A stretch of DNA of 64,000 nt from Chloroflexota bacterium (GCA_013204555.1 JABMNO010000047.1:1-64000), one strand, 5' to 3'; numbered from the stretch's first letter, positions 12,220-48,273 are shown. A program made the numbers and translations. Notes: generated by a model from the letters alone, not told the origin.

Positions 12220-12401
12220 GGACCGCCCCTTCTGGTGTTGCGGGCATCTTAATCACCATTCGCCGCGCAATCAATGGGGGGGAGGTGATCTCACGATCAA
12301 CCACGGCCAACCGTTACTGCTCAAATTGCTCAGCGACAAAACGTCTGCGATCCCTGTTCCAGTGGCAGGAGTACGATATCGATCTTCACATTGGAGAGAA
12401 A

Positions 12402-30862: not shown

Positions 30863-30902
30863 CTACTCTTCAGCCGCCTTTGCAAAATAGTGTGGTGCAA
30901 AT

Positions 30903-32120: not shown

Positions 32121-33265
32121 CAGTAGTCCCGCAGCGCACCATCGCTGGTAATCACCGGCTTCCTGTCGAACGGTACTTGAGGGTAGTGCTTGAACGCTTC
32201 TTCGTTCAGTTCGATGCCGATGCCCGGCCTATCAGGCAGCAACAGGTGGCCATCGACGAGCTTCAGTGGCTCATTCACCAGATCAAGTTTTGGCAACTCA
32301 AACTCGGTGCCGGTGTACTCCTGAATCGCGACGTTATGGAGAGTGGCATCAAGCTGCACACAGGACGCTGTCATCACCGGTGAACACGGGTTATGCGGCA
32401 CCATACCCACATAGTTGGCTTCCGCAATTGCCGCGATCTTCCTGAGATTGGTGATTCCGCCAGCAACGCTGATATCTGGCCGAATGTACGCCGAACCGTT
32501 TTTCTTCATCAACTCCTGGAACTGATAGATGGTGTACAAACGCTCCCCGGAAGCGATTGGTATGGGAATTTCCGCGGCCACGTGGGCCATGGCGTCTATG
32601 CTGTCCGGCTCAATTGGGTCTTCGAAAAAGTAGAGCCCATACTGCTCTAGCGCTCGTCCTGCAGCGATCGCCTCTGGCGGAGTCAGCCTGTTCACCACGT
32701 CGATCATCAGATCCATCTCAGGCCCAACAGCATCTCGCACAGCTGCGGTGAACGATTCCATCAGGCGAACAACACCCTGAAACGAGTCAGGCAAACCATC
32801 AGCGAATGGACCCAGTGGGTAGAATCGTAGGGCTGTATAGCCTTCATCCACGCGACGCATGGCATCGTCGACCATCTCCTCCGGCGTATCGCCGTTGAGG
32901 TGCACGTACACCCGCACTCGATCACGAGTCGGGCCGCCAAGTAGGCGATAAACCGGAAGCCCGGCCGCTTTGCCCGCAATGTCCCAGAGAGCAACATCTA
33001 TGGCACCCAGCGCCGCCATGGCATCGCTACCGCCACGAAACAGGCATCTTCGGAACATGTGCTGCCAGTGGCGCTCAATCTCCAGCGGATTCTTTCCGAT
33101 CAGGTATTCGGCGTGATACTGGACCGCGGCGACTACCGTGAAAGGGGTTCCTGAACCACCACTGCCCCCATGCAGATCACCAATTCCGACAATGCCCTCA
33201 TCGGTCTCGATCTTGACCCACTGGTGAACTGACGCAGCCAGAGTTTCGACTTTCGTTATACGCAT
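32120..33265 (-). CDS. Mandelate racemase/enolase-superfamily dehydratase (copy 1)
   Basis: 381 residues. The N-terminal capping domain (MRITKVETLAASV, VGIGDLHGGSG) is followed by the barrel. Metal ligands fit LMIDVVNRLTPPEA (Asp), YFFEDPIEP (Glu) and IPIASGERLYT (Glu); a general acid/base His is in GMVPHNPCSPV. The pattern is closest to the galactonate/mannonate-type acid sugar dehydratases. Its stop overlaps the start of amidohydrolase copy 2, and it lies 3 bases after a close paralogue. Such paralogue expansion is a SAR202 hallmark. The exact sugar acid is unknown. Confidence 0.9.
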   Translation of the reverse strand: MRITKVETLAASVHQWVKIETDEGIVGIGDLHGGSGGSGTPFTVVAAVQYHAEYLIGKNPLEIERHWQHMFRRCLFRGGSDAMAALGAIDVALWDIAGKAAGLPVYRLLGGPTRDRVRVYVHLNGDTPEEMVDDAMRRVDEGYTALRFYPLGPFADGLPDSFQGVVRLMESFTAAVRDAVGPEMDLMIDVVNRLTPPEAIAAGRALEQYGLYFFEDPIEPDSIDAMAHVAAEIPIPIASGERLYTIYQFQELMKKNGSAYIRPDISVAGGITNLRKIAAIAEANYVGMVPHNPCSPVMTASCVQLDATLHNVAIQEYTGTEFELPKLDLVNEPLKLVDGHLLLPDRPGIGIELNEEAFKHYPQVPFDRKPVITSDGALRDY

Positions 33266-33268
33266 CGA

Positions 33269-34414
33269 TTAATACTCCCTTAGCGCACCATCGCTATTCA
33301 TGAGTACTGGCCGAGGCCAGCGTTCCGGCGGATGATGCTTGAATGCCTCCAAGTTCAGATCAATGCCAAGTCCTGGTCGGTTTGGAATCTGAAGATGGCC
33401 GTCTTTGATCTCCACCGGCTGGTCGACGAGTTCTCGCTTAATTTCAGTTGACTCCGTTGGCCGGTACTCCTGAATCGCTATGTTGTGCGTCGCAGCATCG
33501 AACTGCACGTTGGCTGCGGTCATGACCGGACTCAGCGGGTTGTGCGGAGCAACGCCCACGTACGCAGCCTCACAGATTGCTGCGATCTTCCGCATGTTGG
33601 TGATCCCGCCAACGAGACTCATGTCCGGGCGCGCATACGCCGATGCCTTTTTATTTACCAGCTCCTGGAACTGGTAAATCGTGTACAACCGCTCCCCGGA
33701 AGCGACCGGCATCGGCACTTGTGACGCCACATGCGCCATGGCATCAATGTTGTCCGGTTCAATTGGGTCTTCAAAGAAGTACAGGCCGTAGGGCTCCAGT
33801 GCCCTCCCAATTGCGATCGCTTCGGGGGGCGTCAGCCTGTTAACAACATCGATCATCAGGTCCAGATCAGGTCCAACCGCCTCGCGCACAGCTTTGGTAT
33901 AAGAGACGGCGATGCGAACCATTTCCTGGTAGCCGGGCATGATTGAGTCATTGAACTGACCAATGGGGTAGTACCGAAGCGCCGTGTAACCCTCTTCTTT
34001 GAGTTGGATAGCGTTTTCAGCCATGATCTCCGGCGTCTCGCCGCCTAGATGCGCGTACACCCGAACCTGATCACGCGTCGGGCCGCCCAACAACTTGTGT
34101 ACTGGAAGATTTGCTGCTTTACCCGCGATGTCCCAGACCGCCATATCAATCCCGCCCAACGCTGCCATCGCATCAGAGCCGCCGCGGAAGAGACAACGCC
34201 GGAACATGTGCTGCCAGTTGCGTTCAATCTGCAGCGGGTCCTTACCGGCAAGGTACTCAGCGTGGTACTCGATGGCTCCTCTAGCGGCATACGGCGTCCC
34301 ACTGGTGCCACTCGCCGGATGAACCTCGCCTACCCCGTAGATGCCTTCATCCGTCATCACCCGGACGAAGGTCCAACCAGCTGCCAGATGCGTCTGTACT
34401 TCTGTGACTTTCAT
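33269..34414 (-). CDS. Mandelate racemase/enolase-superfamily dehydratase (copy 2)
   Basis: 381 residues, exactly the length of its tandem paralogue once started at the ATG 34414 (MKVTEVQTHL), which has GGGAG six bases upstream; the frame is open 24 codons further but without support. DLMIDVVNRLTPPEA, YFFEDPIEP, PVASGERLYT and GVAPHNPLSPV give the same metal and acid/base residues. It is probably the first gene of a minus-strand operon running through 33265, 32120 and 30862. The upstream divergent region carries a terminator-like hairpin on the other strand. Confidence 0.9.
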   Translation of the reverse strand: MKVTEVQTHLAAGWTFVRVMTDEGIYGVGEVHPASGTSGTPYAARGAIEYHAEYLAGKDPLQIERNWQHMFRRCLFRGGSDAMAALGGIDMAVWDIAGKAANLPVHKLLGGPTRDQVRVYAHLGGETPEIMAENAIQLKEEGYTALRYYPIGQFNDSIMPGYQEMVRIAVSYTKAVREAVGPDLDLMIDVVNRLTPPEAIAIGRALEPYGLYFFEDPIEPDNIDAMAHVASQVPMPVASGERLYTIYQFQELVNKKASAYARPDMSLVGGITNMRKIAAICEAAYVGVAPHNPLSPVMTAANVQFDAATHNIAIQEYRPTESTEIKRELVDQPVEIKDGHLQIPNRPGLGIDLNLEAFKHHPPERWPRPVLMNSDGALREY

Positions 34415-34530
34415 TGAAGACTCCCATATCGCAACATCTCGGGGATTGATGGACGCCATATAACGCTGATTTTGGAGATGCGTCAATCATCATTATTTGG
34501 CCCACACCGCGTGGTAGACTCGGCGACCGG

Positions 34531-34569
34531 GCCCTGCACCGCGAAATCGGTATGGCAGGGCTGTTTTTT
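34531..34569 (+). promoter_or_regulatory. Terminator-like nested hairpin in the leader of the Gfo/Idh gene (possible attenuator)
   Basis: GCCCTGC (34531-34537) pairs with GCAGGGC (34555-34561), enclosing a second stem ACCG-CGAAAT-CGGT. TGTTTTTT follows at 34562-34569. It reads as an intrinsic terminator on the plus strand, yet no gene ends here: both flanking genes diverge, and the oxidoreductase starts 52 bases downstream. A regulated leader or a small transcript is implied; no known riboswitch class was recognised. Confidence 0.6.
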
Positions 34570-34621
34570 GTCACGATGACACCAACGATTATTTTTCAGT
34601 AAAACCGGAGTGTGGGACCAG

Positions 34622-35800
34622 ATGGCGGGAGCGCTAAGAGTCGCGGTAGTCGGTGTTGGACAACGTGGACTTCAGCACGTTGAATCGATAGCAAAACTCC
34701 AGGCGGACGAAGAGGTCCAACTGGTCGCACTTGCCGACCCGTTTGAGGAGAACCTGGCCGAGGCGAAAGTGCAATCGATTGCCACAAGCTACAAACAGGG
34801 CAGTACCCAACTCTTCACGAACGTTGACGAAATGATCGATACAGCCAAACCCGATGCCGTCTGGTTCGTAATGCCGCCAAACCAGCACCGGGGCGAGATC
34901 GAACGAACCGTCGCAAAAGGCGTCGCCATATTCGCTGAGAAGCCACAGAGCCTCTTTTACGATGAGATCAAAAGTCAGGCTGACGCGATCGATAAGGCCG
35001 GTGTGCCGAGCATCGTGGGATTCCAGAAGCGTTACGACCCCTGGTACACCGCTATTCACGACTACATGGCAGACAAGCAGTTGGCCTCAGCGATGGCAGT
35101 TTCACTTAGCTCCGTTGAGGGCCACAGCGCCAAGCACACGCCCACGGAACGGCAGGGCGGCCCCGCAAACCGCGTGTGGACGGCCAATCGCGCGTGGTCA
35201 GGCACCAGCATGGTTGAAGCGGGGATTCACCAAACGGATCAGATCCGATACTGGGTCTCCGATGATGTTAAGTGGGTTCAGGCAGCTTATGTGGAACGCC
35301 CGGAAGATCTTCAGGAATCACAGGGTGACAACCCGACCGCGTACACAGTCGTCTACGGCTTCAAACGCGGCGGAATCGCCAACGTCATATTCACCAAGCC
35401 AGCCCGCTCCTACTTCAACGATAAATACGAGTATGTGCACACGCCTGATGCTCACATCGCGTTCGAGGACGATCTCGTCGTCTACAGCTACCAGGGAGCC
35501 GACTATCCACCCGCTTCCCGGCCAACGCGAGAGCAGTTGCGTACTGTGCTCGCTGCAGGTCCAGAATCGAACCCGATGGGTAGCGAGAGCACGTTGGACA
35601 TCAGTCGGCAGTTTGCAAGGTCGATAACCGAGTCCGATCCCTCCCTCCGGCGCAACTCGTTCCGGTCGAGCATGAACTCGCTTGCCGCTGTACTTGCGGC
35701 GAATGTTTCAGACTCACTGGGCGGAATCCGCATTGATATTGACGAGTTTGAGAACTCCGACAAGTTTGCCGAGTACCGGCAGCGCCCAGAAGGTCTCTAG
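34622..35800 (+). CDS. Gfo/Idh/MocA-family NAD(P)-dependent oxidoreductase
   Basis: 392 residues. The Rossmann start LRVAVVGVGQRGLQHVESIA and strand-2 acidic LVALADP indicate nucleotide binding. AIFAEKPQSLF carries the family EKP lysine. GFQKRYDPWY and the VEAGIHQTDQIRYW His follow in the usual order. GTG 34610 and ATG 34622 are both possible; the ATG is chosen as closer to the domain. It is divergent from the dehydratase operon and followed after 35 bases by a third enolase-superfamily gene. It probably oxidises or reduces a sugar, inositol or sugar acid in the same pathway. Confidence 0.88.
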   Translation: MAGALRVAVVGVGQRGLQHVESIAKLQADEEVQLVALADPFEENLAEAKVQSIATSYKQGSTQLFTNVDEMIDTAKPDAVWFVMPPNQHRGEIERTVAKGVAIFAEKPQSLFYDEIKSQADAIDKAGVPSIVGFQKRYDPWYTAIHDYMADKQLASAMAVSLSSVEGHSAKHTPTERQGGPANRVWTANRAWSGTSMVEAGIHQTDQIRYWVSDDVKWVQAAYVERPEDLQESQGDNPTAYTVVYGFKRGGIANVIFTKPARSYFNDKYEYVHTPDAHIAFEDDLVVYSYQGADYPPASRPTREQLRTVLAAGPESNPMGSESTLDISRQFARSITESDPSLRRNSFRSSMNSLAAVLAANVSDSLGGIRIDIDEFENSDKFAEYRQRPEGL

Positions 35801-35835
35801 GCGTCAGCTTCAGACAACCGCAGCCCAGGGACCAA

Positions 35836-37005
35836 ATGACTCCAGAACCGTTCAGGATCACGCAGGCCGTCTTCACTGAACTACCGGTTCGGGGCGGCTC
35901 CAACTGGTATTTCTTGGAACTCAGCAACTCAGATGGTGTGACCGGGCTTGCTGAGTTCTCGTATGGAGAAAGTTCCATCACCGTATCGCGGGCGATTGCC
36001 CAGATGGCAGAAGAGCTCCAGGAAGAAGAGATCGTCTCCGAATCAGATATTCCTGCCATGGTTGGACTCACCCCCGGCTTCCTTCAGAGCGACAGGATTC
36101 TCGCTACGGCGATCACGGCGATCAGAAACGCGGTGCTTGATGCTCAGGCTCAGATCGCAGAAGTACCCCTCTATCGACTGCTCGGCGGTGGTATGACCGC
36201 GTCGGTGGAGCTCTACGGCAATATAAATCGCTCGATGCTCAGGGACGATTCCGGTGATTCGGACCGCTCCTCCGCTTCATTTGCCGCGGTGGCGGAACGG
36301 GCCGTTGAAGAAGGATTTCAAAATATCAAATGCGCACCGTTTGATGAGTGCAGAGCGCCATTTGGCGGTTCCGGCCTCCCCGACGAGACGAAAGCGGGAC
36401 TCGACCGAATTGCCGCGGTCAAGTTAGCCATTGGAGACGGGGTAAACCTCTTCGTGGACTGCCACAGCCGGTTCGATCTCGAATCGGCCCTCGCCCTTGA
36501 GCCCGAATTGGCGGCGAGGGGTGTCGCCTGGTACGAGGAGCCGGTGAGCTATCGCACACACAGGAATGATCTGGCTACCATCCGAAATGCCGCAACAATG
36601 GACGTGGCCGGAGCCGAGGATGCCTACGGGCTAGATATATTCCAATCTCTGATCAAAGAAGGCGTCACGGACGTCGTAATGCCCGACGTGAAGTACTGTG
36701 GTGGCGCTGGCGAATCGGTCATGATTGGCAACGCCCTAGAAGCGATATCACCCGGCTCCGTCTCCATGCACAGCCCGTCCGGCCCGGTCTCAATGCTGGC
36801 CAGCGCCCATGCGACTGCTGCGTTCAAGGGCACCCGCCCTCTTGAACACGCCGTGTGGGAAGTTGATTGGCGAGCAACGGTCCTTCAGCCAGCCGAGCAT
36901 ATCCAGGATGGACGCCTTCTAATTCCAGATCGACCAGGCATTGGCGCCACGCTGAATCAAGATCTAATTTCCGACAATGGCCGCCGATGGTCAGCGACGC
37001 AGTAA
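35836..37005 (+). CDS. Enolase-superfamily (MLE/MR-like) enzyme, divergent third member
   Basis: 389 residues, much less similar to the 32-34 kb pair. The barrel has IKCAPFDE (Lys of the KxK region), LFVDCHSRFDLESA (Asp), WYEEPVSY (Glu), VAGAEDAYG (third ligand Glu) and a final MHSPSGPVS His. The N-terminal capping domain is short (GLAEFSYGESS). AGGGA precedes the ATG. It is likely cotranscribed with the Gfo/Idh gene. Dehydratase versus epimerase activity cannot be settled from the motifs seen. Confidence 0.85.
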   Translation: MTPEPFRITQAVFTELPVRGGSNWYFLELSNSDGVTGLAEFSYGESSITVSRAIAQMAEELQEEEIVSESDIPAMVGLTPGFLQSDRILATAITAIRNAVLDAQAQIAEVPLYRLLGGGMTASVELYGNINRSMLRDDSGDSDRSSASFAAVAERAVEEGFQNIKCAPFDECRAPFGGSGLPDETKAGLDRIAAVKLAIGDGVNLFVDCHSRFDLESALALEPELAARGVAWYEEPVSYRTHRNDLATIRNAATMDVAGAEDAYGLDIFQSLIKEGVTDVVMPDVKYCGGAGESVMIGNALEAISPGSVSMHSPSGPVSMLASAHATAAFKGTRPLEHAVWEVDWRATVLQPAEHIQDGRLLIPDRPGIGATLNQDLISDNGRRWSATQ

Positions 37006-37031: not shown

Positions 37032-37754
37032 ATGACTACCCAGAGTTTGCTCCCCGATCCTGGACGCAGCCGCGGACTTAGTTCATCCCAACTCATCAGA
37101 CTGGTGAACGAGATTGAGGCAACCGAGCAACCTGTCACGCTCCGATTTTTTGGGAATGATCGGCAGGACGATCGACCTGAAGATGAGGTGTGGCCGCCAG
37201 ATATGGTCAGGAACGGGTCCGCCGGTTACATCTGGGTCCGGGCAGGAGAAACAGAGCTGGCGATTTCCGGTTCGTTCCCAACCCCCGTGGCGCTCGACGA
37301 CTTCGATTCCCTGGAGCGTTTGATTGAGTTCATCACAATCCCCCGGCTAGTTGCGATCGTGCTGTTGAGGCTTGGCGCTTACTCAGTAGGGCTGGCCAAG
37401 GATGGGGATCTTCTGGTGACGAAGTCCGACACTCGCTACGTCAAAGGCCAGCATAAGAAAGGCGGACAATCGCAGCGCCGGTTCGAGCGCAATCGCGAGA
37501 AGTGGGTACGCGAACTCTTCGACAAAGCCTGCAGAGACTTCAAGGAACGTGTCGGCGAACGATCTCGTGAAGTCAATCACCTCGCGCTTGGTGGTGATCG
37601 CCAGGTTCTCAACTCGTTCGTAAAACGATGCCCTGAGGTGGCGAAGCTGGCTGACCGAAAGCTGCCAGTCCTGCTACGAGTTGACCGCCCCAACACAACG
37701 GCACTGAAGGAGTGCGTGCGAGGACTCTGGATCTGGAGAGTTCACAGACGCTGA
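37032..37754 (+). CDS. VLRF1/Vms1-like peptidyl-tRNA hydrolase (acVLRF1 family)
   Basis: 240 residues. The core LVTKSDTRYVKGQHKKGGQS-QRRF matches the eRF1-like VLRF1 domain, in which a loop Gln (here in GGQS) promotes release of the peptide from tRNA. The family comprises eukaryotic Vms1/ANKZF1 and bacterial (actinobacterial acVLRF1) proteins that act on stalled large-subunit nascent chain complexes. The N-terminal 100 residues (SSQLIRLVNEIEA, GYIWVRAGETELAISG) and the basic C-terminal part (LLRVDRPNTTALKECVRG) are consistent. It sits 26 bases after the enolase-superfamily gene but is unrelated to catabolism. Ribosome-rescue function by homology. Confidence 0.78.
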   Translation: MTTQSLLPDPGRSRGLSSSQLIRLVNEIEATEQPVTLRFFGNDRQDDRPEDEVWPPDMVRNGSAGYIWVRAGETELAISGSFPTPVALDDFDSLERLIEFITIPRLVAIVLLRLGAYSVGLAKDGDLLVTKSDTRYVKGQHKKGGQSQRRFERNREKWVRELFDKACRDFKERVGERSREVNHLALGGDRQVLNSFVKRCPEVAKLADRKLPVLLRVDRPNTTALKECVRGLWIWRVHRR

Positions 37755-37872: not shown

Positions 37873-38811
37873 ATGGTCAACATGGAACGTGCCCTCGAAT
37901 CCGGGGAGGTTGGTCCCGCACCAACCCCTCCGATAGACGCGCGCCTGATTGGCCAGATCGCTCATGAGCTACGCACTCCGCTGGCATCGCTGCGAGTAGC
38001 GTATGAACTGTTCACTGATAAGTCCGCTATTGACGCGCTGGCTGCCAACCCAAAACAGAAAGACCGTCTCATGAACAACATGGGGCGGAGTATTGATCGG
38101 CTGGAACAGCAGGTCTCAGACCTATTGGATATTGGATATCTTCAATCCAACAGTCTCACGCTCAAGCTGACATCAGTTTCGGCGGTCGCACTGATCGCGT
38201 CCGCCTGCGAACGAACCTCCGGACTGTCCGAGCGGAGAAGTCAATTTGTTGACATCAAGTTGGGCGACGATGTGCCTGATATTCTGGCAGACCACGACCG
38301 GATGGAGCAGGTGATGGTCTATCTCCTGTCTTACCTGATGAGGGTGACCCCCGTTGGTGAAACCCTATCGGCGGTCGCAGTAGCCGAGTCGGGCATGTTA
38401 AACCTGGCTCTCAAGGGAGGCGGGAGGCAGATTTCGTTCGACGAACGGGAACGCCTTTTTGAGCCGTTTTTCCGCCTTCGAGGCGAAGGGGGACAGGTTC
38501 AAGATAGCGGCCTGGGCCTCGCGATCTCCAGGTCGCTGGTAGAGTTGCATGGCGGAAGAGTGTGGTTGGAGAGTCCGGTAAACGGCGGCAACACATTCCA
38601 ACTGTCATTGCCAATCGGGGAGGACAATAGCCAGCCGCCGTATTTGCTCCATCAAGCGTTCGGCAACCGTCCGGTGAAGGCGATTGGGCGGACCTTGTTG
38701 GCGACTCAATTTCAATCCTGCAACAGGCTGCCTCTGAAGACATCCCCATGGAGACCCGGTCCGCAACTCTCGAAGAGGCGCTGGGGGAGGCCGCCGAGAT
38801 CTTCAGGCTAG
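37873..38811 (+). CDS. Sensor histidine kinase-like protein with degenerate ATP-binding boxes, probably frameshifted into the next gene
   Basis: 312 residues from ATG 37873 (open upstream to 37771, but the candidate promoter overlaps that part). The H-box is IAHELRTPLASLR. F-box LFEPFFRL and G2-box DSGLGLAISR are good. The N-box lacks its Asn (QVMVYLLSYLM) and the DxGxG box is replaced by KGGGRQ, so kinase activity is doubtful. The domain ends at about FQLSLPIG; the last 55 residues (SPWRPGPQLSKRRWG) read like out-of-frame sequence. In the next gene's frame the same bases read smoothly (GEGDWADLVGDSISILQQAA). A one-base indel or frameshift joining kinase and PTPS-like domains is likely. No sensor domain is visible. 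Confidence 0.75.
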   Translation: MVNMERALESGEVGPAPTPPIDARLIGQIAHELRTPLASLRVAYELFTDKSAIDALAANPKQKDRLMNNMGRSIDRLEQQVSDLLDIGYLQSNSLTLKLTSVSAVALIASACERTSGLSERRSQFVDIKLGDDVPDILADHDRMEQVMVYLLSYLMRVTPVGETLSAVAVAESGMLNLALKGGGRQISFDERERLFEPFFRLRGEGGQVQDSGLGLAISRSLVELHGGRVWLESPVNGGNTFQLSLPIGEDNSQPPYLLHQAFGNRPVKAIGRTLLATQFQSCNRLPLKTSPWRPGPQLSKRRWGRPPRSSG

Positions 38812-39623
38812 CTGCACAACGCCTTCACACGCCGGGTGCAGAAGGCCAGGACCTTCGATCAATGATGTCTGAGCGGACCGGGCGTGAAACTCGTGTCGCG
38901 GCCGCGGGAGTCGCCAATCCCTCCGCGTATCTTGGTGCGCTTCAGGGACTTGGACCCGTACAGAGCGCTGAGATTGAATCAATAGAAGAAGACCTCGTCG
39001 TATACCTGCTTGAAGTGGAATCTCAGCGCGAATTGATCACGGCACTAATCGGCATGCCGCCACCACTGCGGCCCCAGGGACTTCGAGTGGCAGCAAATCG
39101 TATTGACATTGGACTTGGAACTGCACTGACGCCAACTCAGGCTGTGGCAGTCGGAGCCGCCCCACAGGTCGCAGGCCAACCCTCTCCTCGCGCCGTTCCC
39201 TTGCAACCAGCAGTTGTGGAGGCGCCGTCGGCCCCCCGGATTCCTGGAATCGCCATATTTGAGTTGGGAGCCGACGCGTTCTTTGGCGCAAGGCACTTCC
39301 TCACGTTCGCTGGTCGGCAGGGTGAGACTCACTACCACTCCTGGCGGGTAGAAGTGATCCTGGAATCAGACGCCAATGATGAAGAGGGCACCGTTATCGG
39401 CTTCGCAGAGGCCCGTGGCGCTCTCGAAGCGAAGGTTGCTGAGTACAACGAAACTCTTCTGAACAACATTGAGCCCTACGAGCGAATCCAACCCACCGCT
39501 GAAAACATCGCCCGAGTGATCTTCGAGGATATTGGCCCAGCGTTGACGAGGGGCTCCACCCGCCTCCGCACAGTGAGAGTCTGGGAAAGTCCAACTAACC
39601 ACGCAGCCTACTCCGTAAGTTGA
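38748..39623 (+). CDS. 6-pyruvoyl-tetrahydropterin synthase (QueD)-like protein, exosortase G-associated type
   Basis: 291 residues. Residues 1-160 are helical and Ala/Pro-rich with no family assigned. Residues 170-291 are a PTPS/QueD-like fold: ARHFL (H183), ETHYHSW (H195, H197) as zinc ligands, PTAENIA (249-255) and RVWESP (E280). The catalytic Cys found a few residues before the HGH motif in standard enzymes is absent; Glu193 stands there instead, so pterin chemistry is uncertain. In Firmicutes a PTPS-like family (TIGR03112, from memory) accompanies XrtG and a glycosyltransferase, as here. The coding-like frame extends upstream of the ATG for about 40 codons without a start, overlapping the kinase gene. 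Confidence 0.78.
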   Translation: METRSATLEEALGEAAEIFRLAAQRLHTPGAEGQDLRSMMSERTGRETRVAAAGVANPSAYLGALQGLGPVQSAEIESIEEDLVVYLLEVESQRELITALIGMPPPLRPQGLRVAANRIDIGLGTALTPTQAVAVGAAPQVAGQPSPRAVPLQPAVVEAPSAPRIPGIAIFELGADAFFGARHFLTFAGRQGETHYHSWRVEVILESDANDEEGTVIGFAEARGALEAKVAEYNETLLNNIEPYERIQPTAENIARVIFEDIGPALTRGSTRLRTVRVWESPTNHAAYSVS

Positions 39624-39627
39624 CCTG

Positions 39628-42165
39628 ATGAGCAGCAAGCTTCAATTGGTCTTCGCCGGGGGCGTGATATTCGTCGCCGCGGTAATCATCTATCAGGGCA
39701 TTCTGTTTCCACGCAGCGAAGAGGAAAGATACCCGTGGTCCTCCGACAACTGGGGCCACCTCATCAAAGCGGAATACCTGCGGGAGCAGTTAGACGATGG
39801 AATCGTCTATCCAGACCTGTTCCCAAACTGGTATGCCGGCCAGCAGATGCTCCGATATTTCGCTCCACTGCCTTACTACAACCTGGTGTGGTTGGAAGAG
39901 GTCACCGGCGATATCTACGCCGCCGCAAACCTGTTCATTTTCCTGACGGCTCTGGGCGGGGCGCTCTCCTGGCTACTGTTCAAGAAGCATCTTGGTCTGT
40001 TCATGGCGACCCTGGGCGCAGTGTTGTTCCTGTTTGTGCCAGACAATATCCGGGTCGCGTTCGCAGAAGGCAACCTGCCGCGAATTCTCGCCGCATCTTT
40101 GCTCCCGTTGGCGTTCTATTTCACCATCAACATGATGACTGAGGGCGCCCGAAAGCGTGATTTCGCAGGACTTGCAATCGTCTTGAGCATCATCGTTCTG
40201 TCGCATGCCATGATGGTGGCCATATTCACGCTTGGGCTTGGTCTTTTCACCATCACCCATTTCATGATCAACAGGACGTCGATCCCCATCACGGGGAGGA
40301 CCTTCCTTGCCCTGATCACAGGTCTGCTGATCGCTGGATGGTGGCTGGGACCATCCGCTACCGGCGGAATATCTGAAATCGACCAGGAGGCGGCATCTGA
40401 AGCCATCGCCTTCTTCCGGTTCGATGTCGCGTTCAATCCAACGCTCAGAGATACCAACCGGGAGATCTTCTATGTGGGGCTGACCCTCTACCTCATCCCG
40501 CTAATGATTATTCCGTTGTGGAAGCAGACGCCACCGGTGCTCAGGTCTGTTGTGATCTCAGGGCTGCTTATCGGGCTAATCTCATCTACCCAGGTAAACG
40601 AGATCTACAAGGCAGTCCCTCTTCATCAGCTTTTCTGGCCTCTCCGATTCATGAGTTACGCCAGCCTGGCCCTAATGTTTGCAAGCATCGGAATGATTGG
40701 GGTTCTACATCGATCAATTGGTTCGCAGAAGACGAGTCTTGGCCGCGCAGCAAGGTTGGGTACGATAGCGCTCGTAATTCTCATGATCCTCGACTTCTGG
40801 CCGTCGTTGCAGCTGATTCACGGACGTGAACGGCCTCCCGAGGTGGTAGAGGTTGCTGAGAACCTCCGCGACCTTGAAGGGTGGCGCGTTGGAACGGCAG
40901 ATTTGAGTCGATTGGGTTCGGCTCCATCACAGCTCTTTACAACAGTGGGAGGCAGAGAGCAGGTATTTGGATGGGCATTCCAGGGCAGCATCGTCTCATC
41001 GCTAATCGCACGAATTAACCAGGCGATGGTCCAGGAACACGCCACGTATGCCGTCAACCGCTACGAGCGCCTTGGAACCGACGATATTATCGTGGTCAAC
41101 ATCCCCGAAATTGGCCCGGACTTCCGCACGGGACTCACTGACGCCGGTTATGAGATCGCTCACACAACACCCAATATCCAGATGTTCCATAAGGACGGCG
41201 GCCCAAGAGGCAACATCATTGAAATGTCCATCCTTGGCATTGGTGACGGGGTTAACAACCTTGCGATTCTCTTTCCAGAGATAATCGTCGGATTTTCACC
41301 CAATGTTGACGATTACACCCCGGAATTCCTGAATGAATTCGATACGCTTGTATTGTCGCGGTTCAGTTTCAACAGCCGCGCAGAGGCGGAGAAGATGGTC
41401 ACGGATTTCGCTGCGAGCGGAAAGAAAGTCATTATTGACATCACCGGAGCACCACTGGACCCGCTCTCTCGGGAACCAAAGTTCCTGGGTGTTTACGGGG
41501 AGCCAATAATCGGAATATCAAGGGCAAACTTGATCCTGAACGGCGCTGCAACGCCTCTTCAAACCTTCACGGAGGAGTTTGGACCGTGGCGGAGTACAAC
41601 TCCTCAAGGCGTGGAGCAGGTGCTCATTCCATTTGAGTTCCCGGCCGCGGAAGGCGTTCTGATTGGACGGAATACCTATGGCGATGGCGAAGTTGACTTC
41701 ATAGGGTTGAACTTGATGTTTCACGCTGTGATCACATCTGATCCGCTGGCGATTCGCATACTTGAAGCAGAGCTAGATCGTACGGCGAAACAGCGCCCCG
41801 CGGATATAGCGGTACCGCTGAAGAACTATCAGGCTACCGAAGCCGGCTGGAGTTTCGACACCGAACTGGACGCGGAACACTGGGTCTTATTCCCAATGGC
41901 CAATCACGTTGGAACACGGGTACTAGTGGATGGGGTATCTGTTGAAGAGCTGAGTATTGAAACCCTTACGTTCGCCAAAATACCTGCGGGACTGCACAGT
42001 GTCCAAATCATCTCAGAGAAAACTACCATCTACACAATAGGTCGCGCCATGTCCGTGGTCGGCGGACTAATCCTCGTGGCATACGTCACGGGTCTATTGA
42101 GGAGACCCGGCAGCAGACGACGGCGAAAAGACGCTGCCCCAATCCAGGAGCCTTCGGGTGCCTGA
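39628..42165 (+). CDS. PTPS-related multi-pass membrane protein (glycosyltransferase-C-like)
   Basis: 845 residues. About ten hydrophobic helices between residues 5 and 400 include loop residues SSDNWGHLIKAEYL and FPNWYAGQQMLRYF, resembling lipid-linked-sugar GT-C enzymes and the Pfam '6-pyruvoyl-tetrahydropterin synthase related' membrane family. A large extracytoplasmic part (about 410-810) contains GKKVIIDITGAPLD, like an amidotransferase-type fold. One final helix and a basic tail close the protein. It begins 4 bases after the PTPS-like gene and overlaps the next gene by 8 bases, so it is part of a tight operon. Transfer of a sugar from a lipid carrier to a secreted protein or glycan is a reasonable guess. 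Confidence 0.75.
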   Translation: MSSKLQLVFAGGVIFVAAVIIYQGILFPRSEEERYPWSSDNWGHLIKAEYLREQLDDGIVYPDLFPNWYAGQQMLRYFAPLPYYNLVWLEEVTGDIYAAANLFIFLTALGGALSWLLFKKHLGLFMATLGAVLFLFVPDNIRVAFAEGNLPRILAASLLPLAFYFTINMMTEGARKRDFAGLAIVLSIIVLSHAMMVAIFTLGLGLFTITHFMINRTSIPITGRTFLALITGLLIAGWWLGPSATGGISEIDQEAASEAIAFFRFDVAFNPTLRDTNREIFYVGLTLYLIPLMIIPLWKQTPPVLRSVVISGLLIGLISSTQVNEIYKAVPLHQLFWPLRFMSYASLALMFASIGMIGVLHRSIGSQKTSLGRAARLGTIALVILMILDFWPSLQLIHGRERPPEVVEVAENLRDLEGWRVGTADLSRLGSAPSQLFTTVGGREQVFGWAFQGSIVSSLIARINQAMVQEHATYAVNRYERLGTDDIIVVNIPEIGPDFRTGLTDAGYEIAHTTPNIQMFHKDGGPRGNIIEMSILGIGDGVNNLAILFPEIIVGFSPNVDDYTPEFLNEFDTLVLSRFSFNSRAEAEKMVTDFAASGKKVIIDITGAPLDPLSREPKFLGVYGEPIIGISRANLILNGAATPLQTFTEEFGPWRSTTPQGVEQVLIPFEFPAAEGVLIGRNTYGDGEVDFIGLNLMFHAVITSDPLAIRILEAELDRTAKQRPADIAVPLKNYQATEAGWSFDTELDAEHWVLFPMANHVGTRVLVDGVSVEELSIETLTFAKIPAGLHSVQIISEKTTIYTIGRAMSVVGGLILVAYVTGLLRRPGSRRRRKDAAPIQEPSGA

Positions 42166-43543
42166 TAACTGGCTAAAGGTTCGAAGATCCGCAATCGTGG
42201 TGGCGTTCATCGCGATCGTCACTCTATTCATCGCGCTTCCAGCGTTCTCGCCCTCGCCCTCGTACGCTGATACCACCCTTGCCACGGATGGCTTCGAGTC
42301 CGGGACCGACGGCGGGACTGGCCTGTGGGACGCCTCCTGGGCGATTAGTGGTGATGCGTCTATTGAAGATCGTGGCGGGCCGCATAGTGGCTCCAAGCAC
42401 CTACGACTCAGGAGAGACACAGGTAGAGCTGAGCGAGAACTGGACCTCAGCGGCCAGTCCAACGTTCACCTCCAGTTCTGGGCGAAGGCTGAACACTTCG
42501 GTTCCGATGAGACCGCATCAGTGGAAGTAAGCCCGGATGGCGTCACCTGGACTGTCCTCAAAACCTGGGTAGACGGTGATGATGACAAAATCTATTACTT
42601 CCACGACCTTTCCATCCCTGACGCACTCCTCAGCGCAGATTTTTTCGTAGCGTTCGACGCAGAAATGGGCGGGACCAGAGATAAGTTTTACGTCGACGAT
42701 ATCGCGCTAGAATCTGTAGACGCTCCAAATCCGACGCCCACAGCGACACCCGTCCCCACAGCAACGCCATCGCCCACACCGACGCCAACGGCTGGGCCAA
42801 CCCCCACGCCGGAACCAAATCCCACCGCAACGCCGGAACCCACCGCCACAGCCACTCCGGTGCCGACGCCAGCCCCCACGGCCACCGTTGGTACACCCGT
42901 CGCAACCGCACCTGTGGCGAACATCACGTTGGATGGCCAATTCACTGACTGGGCCGGAGTTCCGAACCTTGTTGATCCGCCTGATGACTCTGATGGGAAA
43001 GAAGGCGATATCTACCAGCTGTTCTGGTCGAACAACACCGACGGGGACTATGTCTACTTCATGATCAGTCGCTACGATGAAGAAGGTCAGATCTTCGACG
43101 GTGACGATGGCCAGGACGAGAAGGTGACCTACTCGATCTTTGTTGATACCAATAACAACGGCGACTTCGATGGCTCTGGAGATCGTGAGGTTCGTCTCAA
43201 ATATGATCCTAGGTCAACGAATAGCAAAGTAACCGTTGACGTGCGCCCGGCCAGCGGTGATAGCTGGAGCAATATTTTCACCGATCAGGATTATGGCAAC
43301 TCCGACGGTGAGGGCGGAATCAACGTCGAGATTGGCGTTCCATGGTCCGAACTGGGTCTCGTGTTTGGCCAGCCCATACGCATGTTTGCTGAAAGCGACG
43401 AGGACGACCGCATTCCAGACTCCGGAGATGTGCAGTGGTCGCCAGCGTCCATACTCGGCCCAACCGTGCTGATCTCGTTGTTCATTGGCGCCGCGATCCT
43501 GTTGTGGTGGTTCAGAGGGAGGCACATGTGGAAGCGTGGCTAG
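42158..43543 (+). CDS. Secreted surface protein with Thr/Pro linker and exosortase-type C-terminal tail
   Basis: 461 residues from GTG. A signal peptide ends SYA (about residue 37). A beta-sandwich (38-190; FESGTDGGTGLWDASW) is followed by a Pro/Thr-rich linker (about 190-250), rich in PTPTAT repeats and a likely O-glycosylation zone. Then comes a CBM9/DOMON-like domain (ITLDGQFTDWAG, VYFMISRYDEEG, 255-420) with Asp-rich Ca-like loops. The C terminus is one hydrophobic helix followed by RGRHMWKRG, the layout of exosortase/archaeosortase substrates. The 3' end overlaps the exosortase-like gene by 16 bases. Likely substrate of this local system. Confidence 0.8.
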   Translation: MPDNWLKVRRSAIVVAFIAIVTLFIALPAFSPSPSYADTTLATDGFESGTDGGTGLWDASWAISGDASIEDRGGPHSGSKHLRLRRDTGRAERELDLSGQSNVHLQFWAKAEHFGSDETASVEVSPDGVTWTVLKTWVDGDDDKIYYFHDLSIPDALLSADFFVAFDAEMGGTRDKFYVDDIALESVDAPNPTPTATPVPTATPSPTPTPTAGPTPTPEPNPTATPEPTATATPVPTPAPTATVGTPVATAPVANITLDGQFTDWAGVPNLVDPPDDSDGKEGDIYQLFWSNNTDGDYVYFMISRYDEEGQIFDGDDGQDEKVTYSIFVDTNNNGDFDGSGDREVRLKYDPRSTNSKVTVDVRPASGDSWSNIFTDQDYGNSDGEGGINVEIGVPWSELGLVFGQPIRMFAESDEDDRIPDSGDVQWSPASILGPTVLISLFIGAAILLWWFRGRHMWKRG

Positions 43544-44139
43544 CCGGCATCATCATCGCAGGGTGGATTCTGGTGGTGCTCTTCTTCAGGGCTAACCGGA
43601 TCTGGCTGCCGTACTACATCATTGGGAGCGTTGGACTGGCCCTCGCGGTCATTTTCATTGGGCGGGCCACTTTCATCGAAGGGGCACTACAACAGGTAGT
43701 GGCAGCGGGAGTACACGCCATCTCCAGCCTCACCCCAGTGCCAACCCAGATCTTCCAGGCCGCGCCGGGTGCCATCATGGTTCTCGTCATTGACCAGAGC
43801 GTCGGCTGGACCATGTTGCAGGTCACCGTAGAGTCGTCCGGATTGCTGGAGACCGGCGTCATTGCCGGGATGCTCATGTTCTATCCGGGATGGAGTCTTC
43901 GGAAGAGGGCCACATTTGCGGTAAGCGCGATCATGTTCACCTACATCGCAAACATTATTCGCCTCATGGTGATCGTGGTCACCATCCATTACGGAGGCAA
44001 AGACGCGCTTCTTATATCCCATACAATCCTTGGAAGAGCGGTCTTCTTTATTGGCGTGATAATTATCTACTGGTATTTCATGAGCCGCCCAACCCTGAGA
44101 ACGGTCAAAAGCAAACTGGACCAAGAGATGTTGGAGTAG
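43528..44139 (+). CDS. xrtG: Exosortase/archaeosortase-family protein, XrtG-like, with Ser at the expected Cys
   Basis: 203 residues from GTG 43528, preceded by GGGAGG; the frame is open upstream but inside the previous gene. About six membrane helices. Family signatures: ESSG (102-105) where exosortases have a Cys, NIIR (142-145), and SHTILGR with H165 and R170. The Cys-to-Ser change is coded by TCG and is not a simple misread of the motif. The neighbourhood (PTPS-like protein, PTPS-related membrane protein, family 2 glycosyltransferase) matches the exosortase G cassette (TIGR03110-03112, from memory). It would cleave or transfer C-terminally tagged exported proteins, or do something else if the Ser variant is inactive as a transpeptidase. 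Confidence 0.75.
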   Translation: MEAWLAGIIIAGWILVVLFFRANRIWLPYYIIGSVGLALAVIFIGRATFIEGALQQVVAAGVHAISSLTPVPTQIFQAAPGAIMVLVIDQSVGWTMLQVTVESSGLLETGVIAGMLMFYPGWSLRKRATFAVSAIMFTYIANIIRLMVIVVTIHYGGKDALLISHTILGRAVFFIGVIIIYWYFMSRPTLRTVKSKLDQEMLE

Positions 44140-44148
44140 GGCTACCCG

Positions 44149-45537
44149 GTGCTTACCACTGACGCATTGATCGGATTCATCCTGTTCTGGGGTGTATGGC
44201 TCTTTGTGCCGCTCCTTATTGATGGAACCACGGCGGTTGCCTACTTCATAGGCGCGCTCAAAGCAAAAAAGCGTTACTCAGCGCGAGCGGAAGAAAAAGA
44301 ACTCTCCTTCTACCCAACGGTCTCCATCATCATCCCCGTGTACAACGGAGAAGACATCATTGCAGCCGCCATTGGCGCGCTGAGACAACAGACCTACCCG
44401 CACAACCGAATGGAAATACTGGTCGTGGACAACGTCTCCAGCGACCGTACGCTGGAAGTAATTCGCGATGAGCAGACAATTCCATTCGCTGGAACTATTC
44501 AGTACATATCGCTGCCGTACAAAGGCAAAGTTGGCGCGCTGAACGCCGGCATACACCGCATCCAGGGCGAAATCATCTGCAACCTTGATGCGGACACCAT
44601 GCTTCATCCGGCTGCAATACTTGAAGTCGCCAGTGAGTTCCAGAGGGACCCCAAGCTCGCCGCAGCGACTGGCGCAATCGAAATCGCGTCGTCGGAGGGG
44701 AAGAACCTCCATCCGGTCAAGTACGCAATGGCTGAGTCCGAGTACATGGAGTACTACACCGGATTCAACATTGGGCGGCAGTACCAGAGCGAGACCAACA
44801 GCCTTTTCACCCTTGCGGGGGCGTTCTCAGCTTTCCGCAAAGACATTCTTCTCAGGACGTTCCTGTACGACGAACGGACGGTGTCCGAGGACACATCGCT
44901 AACACTCCATATCACACAGCGATTCCCTGATATGAACGTCCGATGTGTCGCCACTGCTGTTGCCTACGTGGACCCGGTACCCTCGGTCAGCGCCCTTTAT
45001 GCTCAACGGGTACGGTGGCAGCGCGGTCAGATTGAGGTCGCATCACTCTACCCTGGGCTGGAACGCCACCCATTCCGCCTCAAGGGCGTCTCTCTGCCTA
45101 AGTCTCTAATCATTGACCACACACTCGCATTTCCGCGCGTGGTCTGGACGTTCCTGTTGCCCGCCATGTACTTCATTGGCTACCCGCTGACCCTGGTGGT
45201 GAGCGGAATGATCACGATGTACTTCATTTACATGGCTGTCGACGGTCTTTATATGGTCGTGGCGTACATGGTGGCCGATGACGTAAACAGACGCCGCATC
45301 AAGAAACACTGGTGGATATTAACCGTGCTCCCGGCGTTCCGTTGGACAGTATTCTGGTTCAGATTTGGCGGATTTCTTGAGGTTATGACTGAAAGCAAGT
45401 CATGGCGAGTTCGAGACCCATGGACTGAGTCAGCACTTGGACTCCAGCGTATTGGCACCACGACGCTGACCTTCCTGACCCAGTCATTCCCCGCAAAAAT
45501 GGCAGCGGTACTGAGCGGAATCGTCCGAACACGCTAA
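44149..45537 (+). CDS. Family 2 glycosyltransferase, exosortase G-associated type
   Basis: 462 residues from GTG. An N-terminal membrane helix (8-35) precedes the GT-A domain: SIIIPVYNGEDII, VVDNVSSDRT, GALNAGI, the DxD motif in NLDADT, a catalytic Asp in VSEDTSL and QRVRWQRG, as in processive synthases. Three to four C-terminal helices follow, with a YMVADD loop. It begins 9 bases after the exosortase-like gene. By analogy with TIGR03111 it is the partner glycosyltransferase of XrtG. It probably builds a glycan on, or exports one with, the secreted partner protein. Confidence 0.85.
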   Translation: MLTTDALIGFILFWGVWLFVPLLIDGTTAVAYFIGALKAKKRYSARAEEKELSFYPTVSIIIPVYNGEDIIAAAIGALRQQTYPHNRMEILVVDNVSSDRTLEVIRDEQTIPFAGTIQYISLPYKGKVGALNAGIHRIQGEIICNLDADTMLHPAAILEVASEFQRDPKLAAATGAIEIASSEGKNLHPVKYAMAESEYMEYYTGFNIGRQYQSETNSLFTLAGAFSAFRKDILLRTFLYDERTVSEDTSLTLHITQRFPDMNVRCVATAVAYVDPVPSVSALYAQRVRWQRGQIEVASLYPGLERHPFRLKGVSLPKSLIIDHTLAFPRVVWTFLLPAMYFIGYPLTLVVSGMITMYFIYMAVDGLYMVVAYMVADDVNRRRIKKHWWILTVLPAFRWTVFWFRFGGFLEVMTESKSWRVRDPWTESALGLQRIGTTTLTFLTQSFPAKMAAVLSGIVRTR

Positions 45538-45637: not shown

Positions 45638-47809
45638 ATGGCTGATCAGGTTGTTGATGGGGATAGCGGGCAATCTCGGCTCGCTAACGGCATGAATCAA
45701 ATCCGTCATGCCCTGCCATCGCGCGAAACGCTATCTCGTTACGCAATACCTTTTGGCGTCATCGCAATCGTCCAGATCGTTAGCGCCGCGATATTCCTGC
45801 TGAACACGACCTCCGGGGCCAGTGCTGGATTCGACCGACTCCCTATCGACGATGCATGGGTTCGAATGGTCTTCATTCGCAATTTCGCAGAATCGCTTGA
45901 AATCGCGTTCCATCCGGGCGACCTGTCCTCGGGGGCTACAAGCATCCTGTGGGTGCTGGTCCCGGGACTCTTCTCACTGGTGCTGAATCCACTCGGGATA
46001 TCAGTGATGGCCGTAGCGAAAATTCTCGGCATACTATTCGCTCTCGGCGGCGCGTGGCTCGTCTACCTCATCTTGCTCAAGTTGACCGATTCCAAACGTG
46101 TCTCCCTTGTCGGTGGAATTGTCGTAGCGCTCGACCCCACGCGAACTTTTAGCGCCGTCTCAGGCATGGAAATGACTCTCACCTCCACGATTGCGCTTGC
46201 CGCTACGTGGTCCTATTTCCTTGGCAAACACAGGCTAACGGGCGCGTTACTCGCGCTCATGGTGCTTGCCCGGCCAGAGTCCTGGGTACTGGTGATCTTC
46301 GTCGGCGTTCTCGCCATGGCTCGAAGACTGTGGGACCGCACTGAGGTGCAACTAATCACGCTGGATGACGCCAGAGCCCTTAATCGGCTCGTAACCCCGG
46401 CCGCTGTTGTCACGCTTCTTTGGGTCGTCTGGAACATCATCACTGGTGGCTCGCCGCTGCCAAGCGCCTATTACGTAACCCGAGATGAACTGGGGTTTAT
46501 GCCAATTGGCAATTTCAAGGACATACTGCAGGGGTACTACGCCCACCTGAGTCTCTTCAACTCCATCTTCTACCCCGTCGGTGGTGGCCTCGTAATCTGG
46601 GGGGCCGTCAAACTGCTGAAGACTTACAACCTCGCCATAACCCCGCTGGCGCTTTTTGCGGTGATCTATACGTATGCAGTGGCGATGAATATCACGTTGA
46701 ACGCAGAAGAGTTTAACTTCACTCAGCGGCGCTATCTGGACCCGGTAATCCCATTCTTAATCATCCTGTTCTTCGTAGGCCTGCTCCAGGCATGGGACCT
46801 GATCAGACACTGGCGGGCTACGCGATCACCAGCCGACCCAACGGAAGCACGAATATTCAACTTCTCTTTGAACGCCCTCTTTTTGTTCGTCACCATTACC
46901 CCGTTCGTGGGATTTGGTGGCGCGATATTTGATCTGCCAGAGGAGTACTCCTACAACACAAAAAACGTTCACGAAGGACTGGTCGGCGGCGCGTTATGGC
47001 TCAAAGAAAACACTCCCCCGGACGCCCGAATCGGTACGGAGGTGATCGGCGCTGTCGCGTTCTACGCCGACCGTGATATCACGGACTTTTCTGGCCGTCA
47101 GCTTGGAGGAGGTGAGATTAGAGAAACCTTTGCTCTCGCCAAGGCCGAAGATCTCGACTACGCGTTCGGTTACTCCAGTGTCTACATCGATTCCTGGCCC
47201 CCGGCGATACCGGTCTACACTGAAATCGTCGAAGATAACAAGATTCTCGCTACCTCAGAAATAAACGCATGGAAACTGGACTTCGACGTTGAAGTTGAGG
47301 TCGCCGCCGCCGAGGTGCCCTATCTGCTCAACTTCGAGCAGCGCAATCTCGTGGTGATTGACACCCTTGATGTCGGTAATCCCAACGCCCCTCCAGAAGC
47401 ATCAGAAGCGGTGCATGAGTATGAAGATGAAGGGCTATCGGCACCCGTCAACCGCCAATTCCGTGTTGATGACAATATTGTGTTGAATGAGAACGCAAGA
47501 ACGTTCACTGTTGCCGAGGAGTTCAAAGTCGCATCACGGGATGGGGAGCGGCTCCTCATCGCTAAACGCTACGATGCGGCAGTCGGGCAAAGGCTGAGGG
47601 TGGTGGTTGATGGCGAGACAGCTATCAGCGGTGAGGATGCCGGGATATGGGATCTCCCGAAAAGAGACTTCTTCTTTGGAGAAGAGCTATTTGTCATTCC
47701 CGGCGATTTGATCACATCCAGCCGGACCGAATTACGATTCGAGTTCATCCCAACTGATAGAAGTGATGCTGGCAACAGTTTCTTTTTCTGGATTCTCGTA
47801 GATAGGTAA
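45638..47809 (+). CDS. Large membrane glycosyltransferase (GT39/GT-C-like)
   Basis: 723 residues. Ten or so hydrophobic helices span about 35-430, with the catalytic-type acidic pair in the first external loop (LPIDDAWVRM), as in GT-C/PMT enzymes that use polyprenyl-phosphate sugars. An extracytoplasmic part (about 440-723) has WLKENTPPDARIGTE, common in this group, and ends in a beta domain. It starts 100 bases after the family 2 transferase and ends 2 bases before the zinc-finger gene. It plausibly adds sugars to proteins exported by the exosortase-like block. No signal for cleavage is seen. Confidence 0.8.
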   Translation: MADQVVDGDSGQSRLANGMNQIRHALPSRETLSRYAIPFGVIAIVQIVSAAIFLLNTTSGASAGFDRLPIDDAWVRMVFIRNFAESLEIAFHPGDLSSGATSILWVLVPGLFSLVLNPLGISVMAVAKILGILFALGGAWLVYLILLKLTDSKRVSLVGGIVVALDPTRTFSAVSGMEMTLTSTIALAATWSYFLGKHRLTGALLALMVLARPESWVLVIFVGVLAMARRLWDRTEVQLITLDDARALNRLVTPAAVVTLLWVVWNIITGGSPLPSAYYVTRDELGFMPIGNFKDILQGYYAHLSLFNSIFYPVGGGLVIWGAVKLLKTYNLAITPLALFAVIYTYAVAMNITLNAEEFNFTQRRYLDPVIPFLIILFFVGLLQAWDLIRHWRATRSPADPTEARIFNFSLNALFLFVTITPFVGFGGAIFDLPEEYSYNTKNVHEGLVGGALWLKENTPPDARIGTEVIGAVAFYADRDITDFSGRQLGGGEIRETFALAKAEDLDYAFGYSSVYIDSWPPAIPVYTEIVEDNKILATSEINAWKLDFDVEVEVAAAEVPYLLNFEQRNLVVIDTLDVGNPNAPPEASEAVHEYEDEGLSAPVNRQFRVDDNIVLNENARTFTVAEEFKVASRDGERLLIAKRYDAAVGQRLRVVVDGETAISGEDAGIWDLPKRDFFFGEELFVIPGDLITSSRTELRFEFIPTDRSDAGNSFFFWILVDR

Positions 47810-47811
47810 TT

Positions 47812-48273
47812 ATGGTCACAACCGCGGTTAGCTGCCCGCAATGCGGGGATCAGTTCAAGACGCCACAGGGTCTCGCGGGACATCGCCGGTTCCGACATGG
47901 CGATCCCCGCCGAGACGCGGAAGCCACCCGCGCTCAAAACGCGCGTCTCGAACTCCTCGAGGGGTACGAAGAGAATCCCAACGTCCCCCCAAACACCGCC
48001 GTTCTCATAGCCCGCCTCAAGCGCCGCTATGGCGACCGACGCGGCATCCGCAGCGACACGGACTGCGTCATCTGCGGCTCAGTCTGCAAGACGTCTCAGG
48101 GTCTCGCCGGCCACATGCGACATCGACACGGAGCGGGCACAACAACGGCGCCCGGCAACGATGCCCGGCTCGCCAGCGAGTTGGTCAGGTACATCGGAGC
48201 CATCGAACTTCCAGAGCCTGTTGAAGAGGCCGTCTGGGAGAAGGTGTTGAGGCTCTCCGGCTTCCGCTGGTAG
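47812..48273 (+). CDS. Small protein with two C2H2-type zinc fingers
   Basis: 153 residues. Two finger units: CPQCGDQFKTPQGLAGHRRFRH (spacing C-x2-C-x12-H-x4-H) at about 8-29, and CVICGSVCKTSQGLAGHMRHRH at about 84-105. The repeated QGLAGH core shows internal duplication. The region between and the C-terminal 45 residues are helical. Classical C2H2 fingers are uncommon in bacteria (Ros/MucR differ in spacing); DNA or RNA binding is likely. It starts 2 bases after the membrane glycosyltransferase and may be cotranscribed and regulatory. Target unknown. Confidence 0.8.
   Translation: MVTTAVSCPQCGDQFKTPQGLAGHRRFRHGDPRRDAEATRAQNARLELLEGYEENPNVPPNTAVLIARLKRRYGDRRGIRSDTDCVICGSVCKTSQGLAGHMRHRHGAGTTTAPGNDARLASELVRYIGAIELPEPVEEAVWEKVLRLSGFRW

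Follow-up and report, generated by a model that had tools for sequence, protein, structure and literature searches.

Does the XrtG sorting system extend beyond the Firmicutes, and could its exosortase remain an enzyme where the catalytic cysteine is replaced by serine? The question is raised by a stretch of 64,000 nucleotides from a Chloroflexota bacterium (GCA_013204555.1, JABMNO010000047.1:1-64000; the window, in what follows, is this whole stretch), in which genes for an exosortase-family protein (XRT), a secreted protein (SEC), a PTPS/QueD-like protein, a membrane protein of the PF10131 family and a family 2 glycosyltransferase (GT2) are clustered. With moderate confidence, we read this locus as the Chloroflexota version of the XrtG cassette, i.e., a dedicated one-enzyme, one-substrate system of C-terminal sorting tied to surface-glycan synthesis. 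The further proposal, that XRT is a natural serine exosortase in which cysteine was replaced at least twice, with the arginine and histidine partners and the dedicated substrate kept, so that it would be an active Ser-Arg-His membrane transpeptidase, we regard as evenly poised. The relevant features are the following:

37873..38811, + strand: sensor histidine kinase-like protein (reading frame open from 37771; PF00512, HisKA, and PF02518, HATPase_c, above cut-off; no predicted transmembrane segment)
38748..39623, + strand: PTPS/QueD-like protein (PF01242, E-value 2.7e-23; TIGR03112, 48.3 bits against a cut-off of 69.35)
39628..42165, + strand: PF10131 multi-pass membrane protein with C-terminal beta domains (PF10131, E-value 1.2e-108)
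42158..43543, + strand: SEC, secreted substrate candidate with a signal peptide and a C-terminal sorting tail
43430..43540, + strand: predicted C-terminal sorting signal within SEC, VQWSPASILG followed by a transmembrane helix and RGRHMWKRG (from the SEC alignment)
43528..44139, + strand: XRT, XrtG-like exosortase, 203 amino acids (TIGR03110, 92.5 bits against a cut-off of 102.75)
44149..45537, + strand: GT2, family 2 glycosyltransferase (TIGR03111, 333.8 bits; PF00535, Glycos_transf_2)
45638..47809, + strand: further putative glycosyltransferase with multiple transmembrane segments (NF047440, E-value 1.1e-10, under the cut-off)

The cassette and its Firmicutes relatives

The computed gene positions confirm the initial annotation of five genes that overlap or lie close together: the spacings from the PTPS-like gene through those of the PF10131 protein, SEC and XRT to that of GT2 are +4, -8, -16 and +9 nucleotides. 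The GTG start codon of XRT falls within the last codons of the SEC gene, shortly after a Shine-Dalgarno-like AGGGAGG. The arrangement is far beyond chance, given the profile E-values (1.4e-99 for TIGR03111, 1.2e-108 for PF10131, 2.7e-23 for PF01242 and about 3e-26 for TIGR03110) and the recurrence of the gene order in other genomes.

Profile searches support the assignment of these genes to an XrtG cassette outside the Firmicutes. The best NCBIfam families of XRT, GT2 and the PTPS-like protein are those of the XrtG set, TIGR03110, TIGR03111 and TIGR03112, respectively, and no other family outranks them, which would have counted against the annotation, although the scores remain below the curated cut-offs (363.95 bits in the case of GT2, for which the second-best family, PgaC/IcaA, reaches 108 bits, more than 200 bits behind TIGR03111). 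Because every window protein scores under its TIGR cut-off, the locus is described here as XrtG-like and not as annotated XrtG. The XRT proteins of the relatives score between 76.9 and 102.7 bits with TIGR03110, the top value being that of locus L057 in genome G660 (here and below, L-numbers denote loci and G-numbers genomes); the GT2 of the same locus reaches 358.5 bits with TIGR03111, and the PTPS-like protein of L015 reaches 64.5 bits with TIGR03112. The TIGR cut-offs fit the Firmicutes, and the Chloroflexota proteins are the next ring out. The window XRT passes the superfamily profiles (TIGR04178, 51 bits against 23; PF09721, 25.9 against 25.7), and a maximum-likelihood tree unites the XRT proteins of the cassettes with three XrtG proteins of Firmicutes in one clade (support 99/99), set against 13 other Chloroflexota exosortases. 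Another type of Chloroflexota exosortase, with NC[VI]GW around the cysteine, is encoded at L017 (12885-13565) and at L101-L103, outside the XrtG clade.

Altogether, 26 Chloroflexota cassettes from several classes were read. The genes remain linked across these classes, as the annotation of a single cassette implies, and most of the loci follow the order PTPS-like protein, PF10131, SEC, XRT, GT2 as far as the contig permits. The system is rare and patchy in Chloroflexota. In an even draw of 400 genomes, strong TIGR03110 matches (E-value below 1e-20) are found in 8, that of the window among them; searches by class yield 10 cases among the 294 genomes of the window's class, 9 among 249 for the class of G088, 2 among 150 for that of G150 and 1 among 29 for that of G129, and G011 is the sole case in its own class. 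A literature search for exosortases together with Chloroflexota found no paper on such a system.

In Firmicutes, the order is CTERM protein, xrtG, glycosyltransferase, hypothetical protein, PTPS, PF10131 on the [Eubacterium] eligens plasmid NC_012780; diguanylate cyclase, EAL, CTERM protein, xrtG, glycosyltransferase, PTPS, TIGR03766 glycosyltransferase on Lactococcus lactis pBV60; and PTPS, small unnamed protein, xrtG, glycosyltransferase in Aneurinibacillus. Comparison of these orders with those in Chloroflexota defines a core of PTPS-like protein, substrate, exosortase and GT2, with a variable second glycosyltransferase. The window cassette shares with the Firmicutes system (TIGR03110, TIGR03111, TIGR03112 and TIGR04145) the same adjacent families beside a CTERM substrate, so that a PTPS-related protein, a CTERM substrate, an exosortase and a TIGR03111-type glycosyltransferase are linked; a substrate domain that starts with I[TV][IL]DG.F.DW; and, in the case of E. 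eligens, PF10131. It differs in its scores below the cut-offs, in the order PTPS-PF10131-SEC-XRT-GT2, in the tail motif WSP..LG, in the serine found in 15 of the 26 cassettes and, in the window's family, in the presence upstream of a kinase (in relatives, also of a response regulator), the place of which is taken in Lactococcus by c-di-GMP genes. The gts/c-di-GMP operon of Lactobacillus acidophilus (PMC6123363) was considered as functional evidence and left unused because its identity with the XrtG locus is not established.

Serine at the nucleophile position

In the window XRT, the position of the catalytic cysteine is occupied by Ser103 (codon TCG, 43834-43836), which the initial annotation had missed. 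Across the 26 cassettes, this position is serine in 15 and cysteine in 11, with no other residue observed; it is cysteine in all three Firmicutes XrtG proteins and in each of 24 other (non-XrtG) Chloroflexota exosortases, every match having been read in frame. The window XRT retains the motifs N142IIR145 (Asn-x-x-Arg) and H165TILG169 (His-x-x-x-Gly), and N142, R145, H165 and G169 are invariant in the XRT alignment. The TIGR03110 profile scores cysteine 5.5 bits above serine at this position, and serine no differently from alanine or threonine. Given that the strict cut-offs are missed and the catalytic cysteine is absent, the window XRT is filed neither as an annotated XrtG nor as a standard exosortase; judged by its sequence, it is a Cys-to-Ser variant that belongs to the XrtG clade and is encoded in a cassette of the XrtG type.

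A tree built without the position-103 column requires three changes at this position, at least two of which are forced by well-supported branches. Serine is found in the main clade and, separately, within the mostly cysteine-bearing family f12, and the cysteine form of G129 adjoins the window's serine family. In this one syntenic cassette, serine has replaced cysteine on two or more independent occasions. All four TCN codons are used for the serine, which is retained among XRT proteins that are only 34-45% identical to that of the window. The ratio of nonsynonymous to synonymous substitution rates (dN/dS) among close serine-bearing genes is 0.06-0.21 where it can be estimated, values that are rough because several dS exceed 1; by this measure, the XRT gene is under strong purifying selection. 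The change looks less like decay than like the substitution of one working nucleophile by another.

The structure prediction that had been proposed as a check of XRT gave an AF2 model (pLDDT 82) that proved uninformative with regard to the fold: because the matches are only to generic helical bundles (Foldseek best E-value 0.59; VIA Z up to 6.3), no conclusion is drawn from it. The alignments for two of the structure models consisted of rows from the window and from genomes only, with no plasmid sequence. Searches of PDB sequences with the XRT, SEC and PF10131 profiles detected no significant match.

Candidate substrate and partner proteins

SEC consists of a signal peptide, an N-terminal domain that looks beta-rich, a Pro/Thr-rich linker, a domain with the pattern DG.F.DW ... 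DTNNNG.Y...DR and the sorting tail; its hydrophobic segments are at residues 5-35 and 429-454, the latter being a C-terminal transmembrane helix with a basic end. The motif WSP..LG directly precedes this helix and is conserved in the lineages that contain PF10131. In an alignment of 16 tails, the tryptophan is nearly invariant, and the serine, the proline and the glycine of LG are invariant. The final domain and the tail are conserved between the window and distant classes, and the tail motif is kept also in the lineages with serine-bearing XRT. SEC thus has the layout of a Firmicu-CTERM protein (C-terminal motif, transmembrane helix, basic end, gene beside that of XRT). For the Lactococcus substrate, the match covers only the DG.F.DW segment, and a Pfam search identifies no family in SEC except for a sub-threshold GEVED match. 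Genome-wide profile searches found exactly one SEC in each of 10 genomes whose cassettes contain a SEC of this type, hence the one-enzyme, one-substrate pattern. The substrates of family f12 (L011, 7706-9337, 543 amino acids; L016, 10428-12305, 625 amino acids) end instead with Y[TK]CSGA..MGW, a transmembrane helix and basic residues, so that this exosortase type has another candidate sorting motif besides WSP..LG.

GT2 contains the DxD, ED and QxxRW motifs of processive synthases. The PF10131 protein matches its family with 364.7 bits (cut-off 26.4), and a Foldseek search started with its AF2 model (pLDDT 84, pTM 0.80) identifies AftD (3.9e-9), the oligosaccharyltransferase OST, ArnT, AftA and PglB; the model indicates a GT-C glycosyltransferase fold. 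At L010 (2-3043), PF10131 and SEC form a single uninterrupted open frame, either a natural fusion or a sequencing effect. At L059 (8687-9970), a single open frame covers SEC and XRT; frame errors are likely there because PF10131 is also split on the same contig. At L014 (426-5325, G011), two tandem PF10131 genes precede the substrate gene, where other loci place the PTPS gene.

Alignment of the PTPS-like protein with QueD/PTPS chains from the PDB reveals that three histidines of the zinc-ligand type are retained and that the catalytic cysteine and the Asp-His pair are absent; the same holds for the relatives that were read, including that of E. eligens. In the absence of these catalytic residues, the name pterin synthase would be wrong for this protein. 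Its role is probably that of a cytoplasmic-side partner in ligand binding or regulation.

The kinase-like protein and the additional GT-C-like gene, which the initial annotation took for elaborations of the system, are both present but are confined to the window's family and do not belong to the conserved system. Kinase homologs lie immediately upstream at L018, L020 and L046, followed there by an OmpR-type response regulator, and homologs of the downstream multi-spanning putative glycosyltransferase are found only at L018 and L046. A scan for further conserved neighbors yielded only the OmpR-type regulator, in the family of the window; the remaining clusters were for the most part antisense or overlapping frames. 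Compared with L018, the window lacks about 1.85 kb at 38600-38800, in the interval that separates kinase and PTPS domain, which corresponds to the OmpR-type regulator gene and the N-terminal part of the PTPS gene that are seen in L018 (604 amino acids), L020 and L046. This N-terminal part contains Cys-rich repeats and a helix-turn-helix domain similar to sigma-70 region 4. The gap is either a real deletion or an assembly join.

Proposed pathway and its alternatives

Under the sorting hypothesis, Sec would export SEC, the C-terminal helix of which would keep it in the membrane. GT2 would make or extrude a glycan that the PF10131 enzyme may extend, modify or transfer on the outer face, with a lipid-linked donor. 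XRT would then cut SEC near WSPxxxLG via an acyl-enzyme on Ser103 (cysteine in the other lineages), aided by Arg145 and His165. An acceptor, located on the growing glycan or on its lipid, would take over the acyl group, and the SEC domain would thereby become joined to the surface polymer. Exosortases are associated with exopolysaccharide loci (PMC1569441), and in other bacteria, where they are likewise encoded near exopolysaccharide genes, their substrates influence the attachment of the exopolysaccharide to the cell (PMC12188702).

XRT shares with the EpsH/PEP-CTERM exosortases of Gram-negatives (XrtA and others) the superfamily, the residue pattern x-x-G, N-x-x-R, H-x-x-x-G, the tail architecture of the substrate and the link to exopolysaccharide genes; unlike those systems, in which a genome typically encodes many substrates and the nucleophile is cysteine, it has one substrate, a non-PEP motif and serine. 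The archaeosortase ArtA is a multi-pass membrane enzyme of the same superfamily with the same motif-helix-basic substrate tail, but uses Cys173, a PGF substrate motif and a lipid acceptor. A model for how a serine exosortase would work is the rhombosortase RssP (GlyGly-CTERM), a membrane serine enzyme acting on C-terminal sorting tags; RssP, however, belongs to the rhomboid family, is unrelated in sequence and has a Ser-His dyad, in contrast to Ser-Arg-His on the exosortase scaffold.

Several points weigh against an active serine transpeptidase in a glycan-linked cassette. The C173S mutant of ArtA is reportedly inactive, and a natural serine form is all the more unexpected for it. With regard to the active-site geometry, fold searches with the XRT model gave no informative solved relative. 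The match of SEC to the Firmicu-CTERM profile TIGR04145 is weak (16.6 bits, cut-off 50; E-value 0.0055; SEC residues 256-454, profile positions 1-187 of 191), and in family f12, PF10131 is missing and the PTPS-like protein, XRT and GT2 are accompanied by an unrelated substrate. We infer the activity of XRT, the cleavage, the acceptor, the glycan and the glycosylation of SEC from gene content, homology and residue conservation. The definition of EpsH exosortases names six residues, in the motifs Cys-x-Gly, Asn-x-x-Arg and His-x-x-x-Gly, that are reported to be perfectly conserved (PMC1569441); five of these six are present in the window XRT, the catalytic cysteine being the one that is missing. 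In ArtA, Cys173, Arg214 and Arg253 are reported to be critical (PMC9263693).

The loss of a residue that family profiles treat as fixed, and the requirement for the orthologous cysteine in ArtA (PMC9263693), would be accounted for if the serine forms were pseudo-exosortases that bind or position SEC, as in chaperoning or retention, or serve glycan export without cleavage, the enzyme being kept only in the cysteine lineages. We consider this unlikely, though it is the strongest of the alternatives: only serine has taken the place of the cysteine, it has done so independently in two or more lineages, and it persists at 34-45% identity to the window XRT; Arg145, His165, Asn142 and the glycine residues are invariant, the SEC tail motif is still conserved in the serine lineages, and the XRT gene is under strong purifying selection.

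Less probable still is that the locus serves polysaccharide synthesis first, with an exosortase-like protein that does not act on SEC and with SEC as a membrane-anchored glycan-binding subunit. The similarity of GT2 to the PgaC/IcaA synthases, the GT-C assignment of PF10131 and the location of exosortase-family genes among exopolysaccharide genes (PMC1569441) are compatible with this possibility; it sits poorly, however, with the exosortase-type tail of SEC (motif, transmembrane helix, basic end) and its invariant residues, with the XRT start codon inside the SEC gene, with the single SEC per genome alongside XRT and with the annotation of the Firmicutes partner as Firmicu-CTERM. That two unrelated modules, the pair of glycosyltransferases and the pair for protein sorting, are chance neighbors, as f12 (no PF10131, different substrate) and Aneurinibacillus (no PF10131 beside the locus) might suggest, is highly improbable, given that PTPS, substrate, XRT and GT2 are linked in Chloroflexota and Firmicutes alike and that PF10131 and SEC share one open frame in L010.

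Further genes surround the cassette. The gene that adjoins it at 47812-48273 encodes a small bacterial protein in which two zinc fingers of the C2H2 type are recognized (PF13894, barely above the cut-off), and at L018 an open reading frame of similar size (11930-12403) occupies the same place. Upstream of the kinase gene, an acVLRF1-type archaeo-eukaryotic release-factor-like protein is encoded (37032-37754), as it is in L020, and the region 29657-37005 contains a series of paralogous amidohydrolase-like and enolase-superfamily-like genes; runs of this kind are reported from SAR202-type genomes.

These findings extend a little-studied Firmicutes sorting system, with its partners intact, to several classes of Chloroflexota. 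The extension fixes the core of the system (PTPS-like protein, substrate, exosortase and GT2) and indicates that PF10131 proteins are GT-C glycosyltransferases. The repeated exchange between cysteine and serine amounts to a natural mutagenesis experiment in an enzyme superfamily in which the present searches turned up no solved relative. With just one substrate in each genome, the reaction is tractable, and direct comparison of cysteine and serine forms, each with a single known substrate, could test the assumed acyl-enzyme mechanism.

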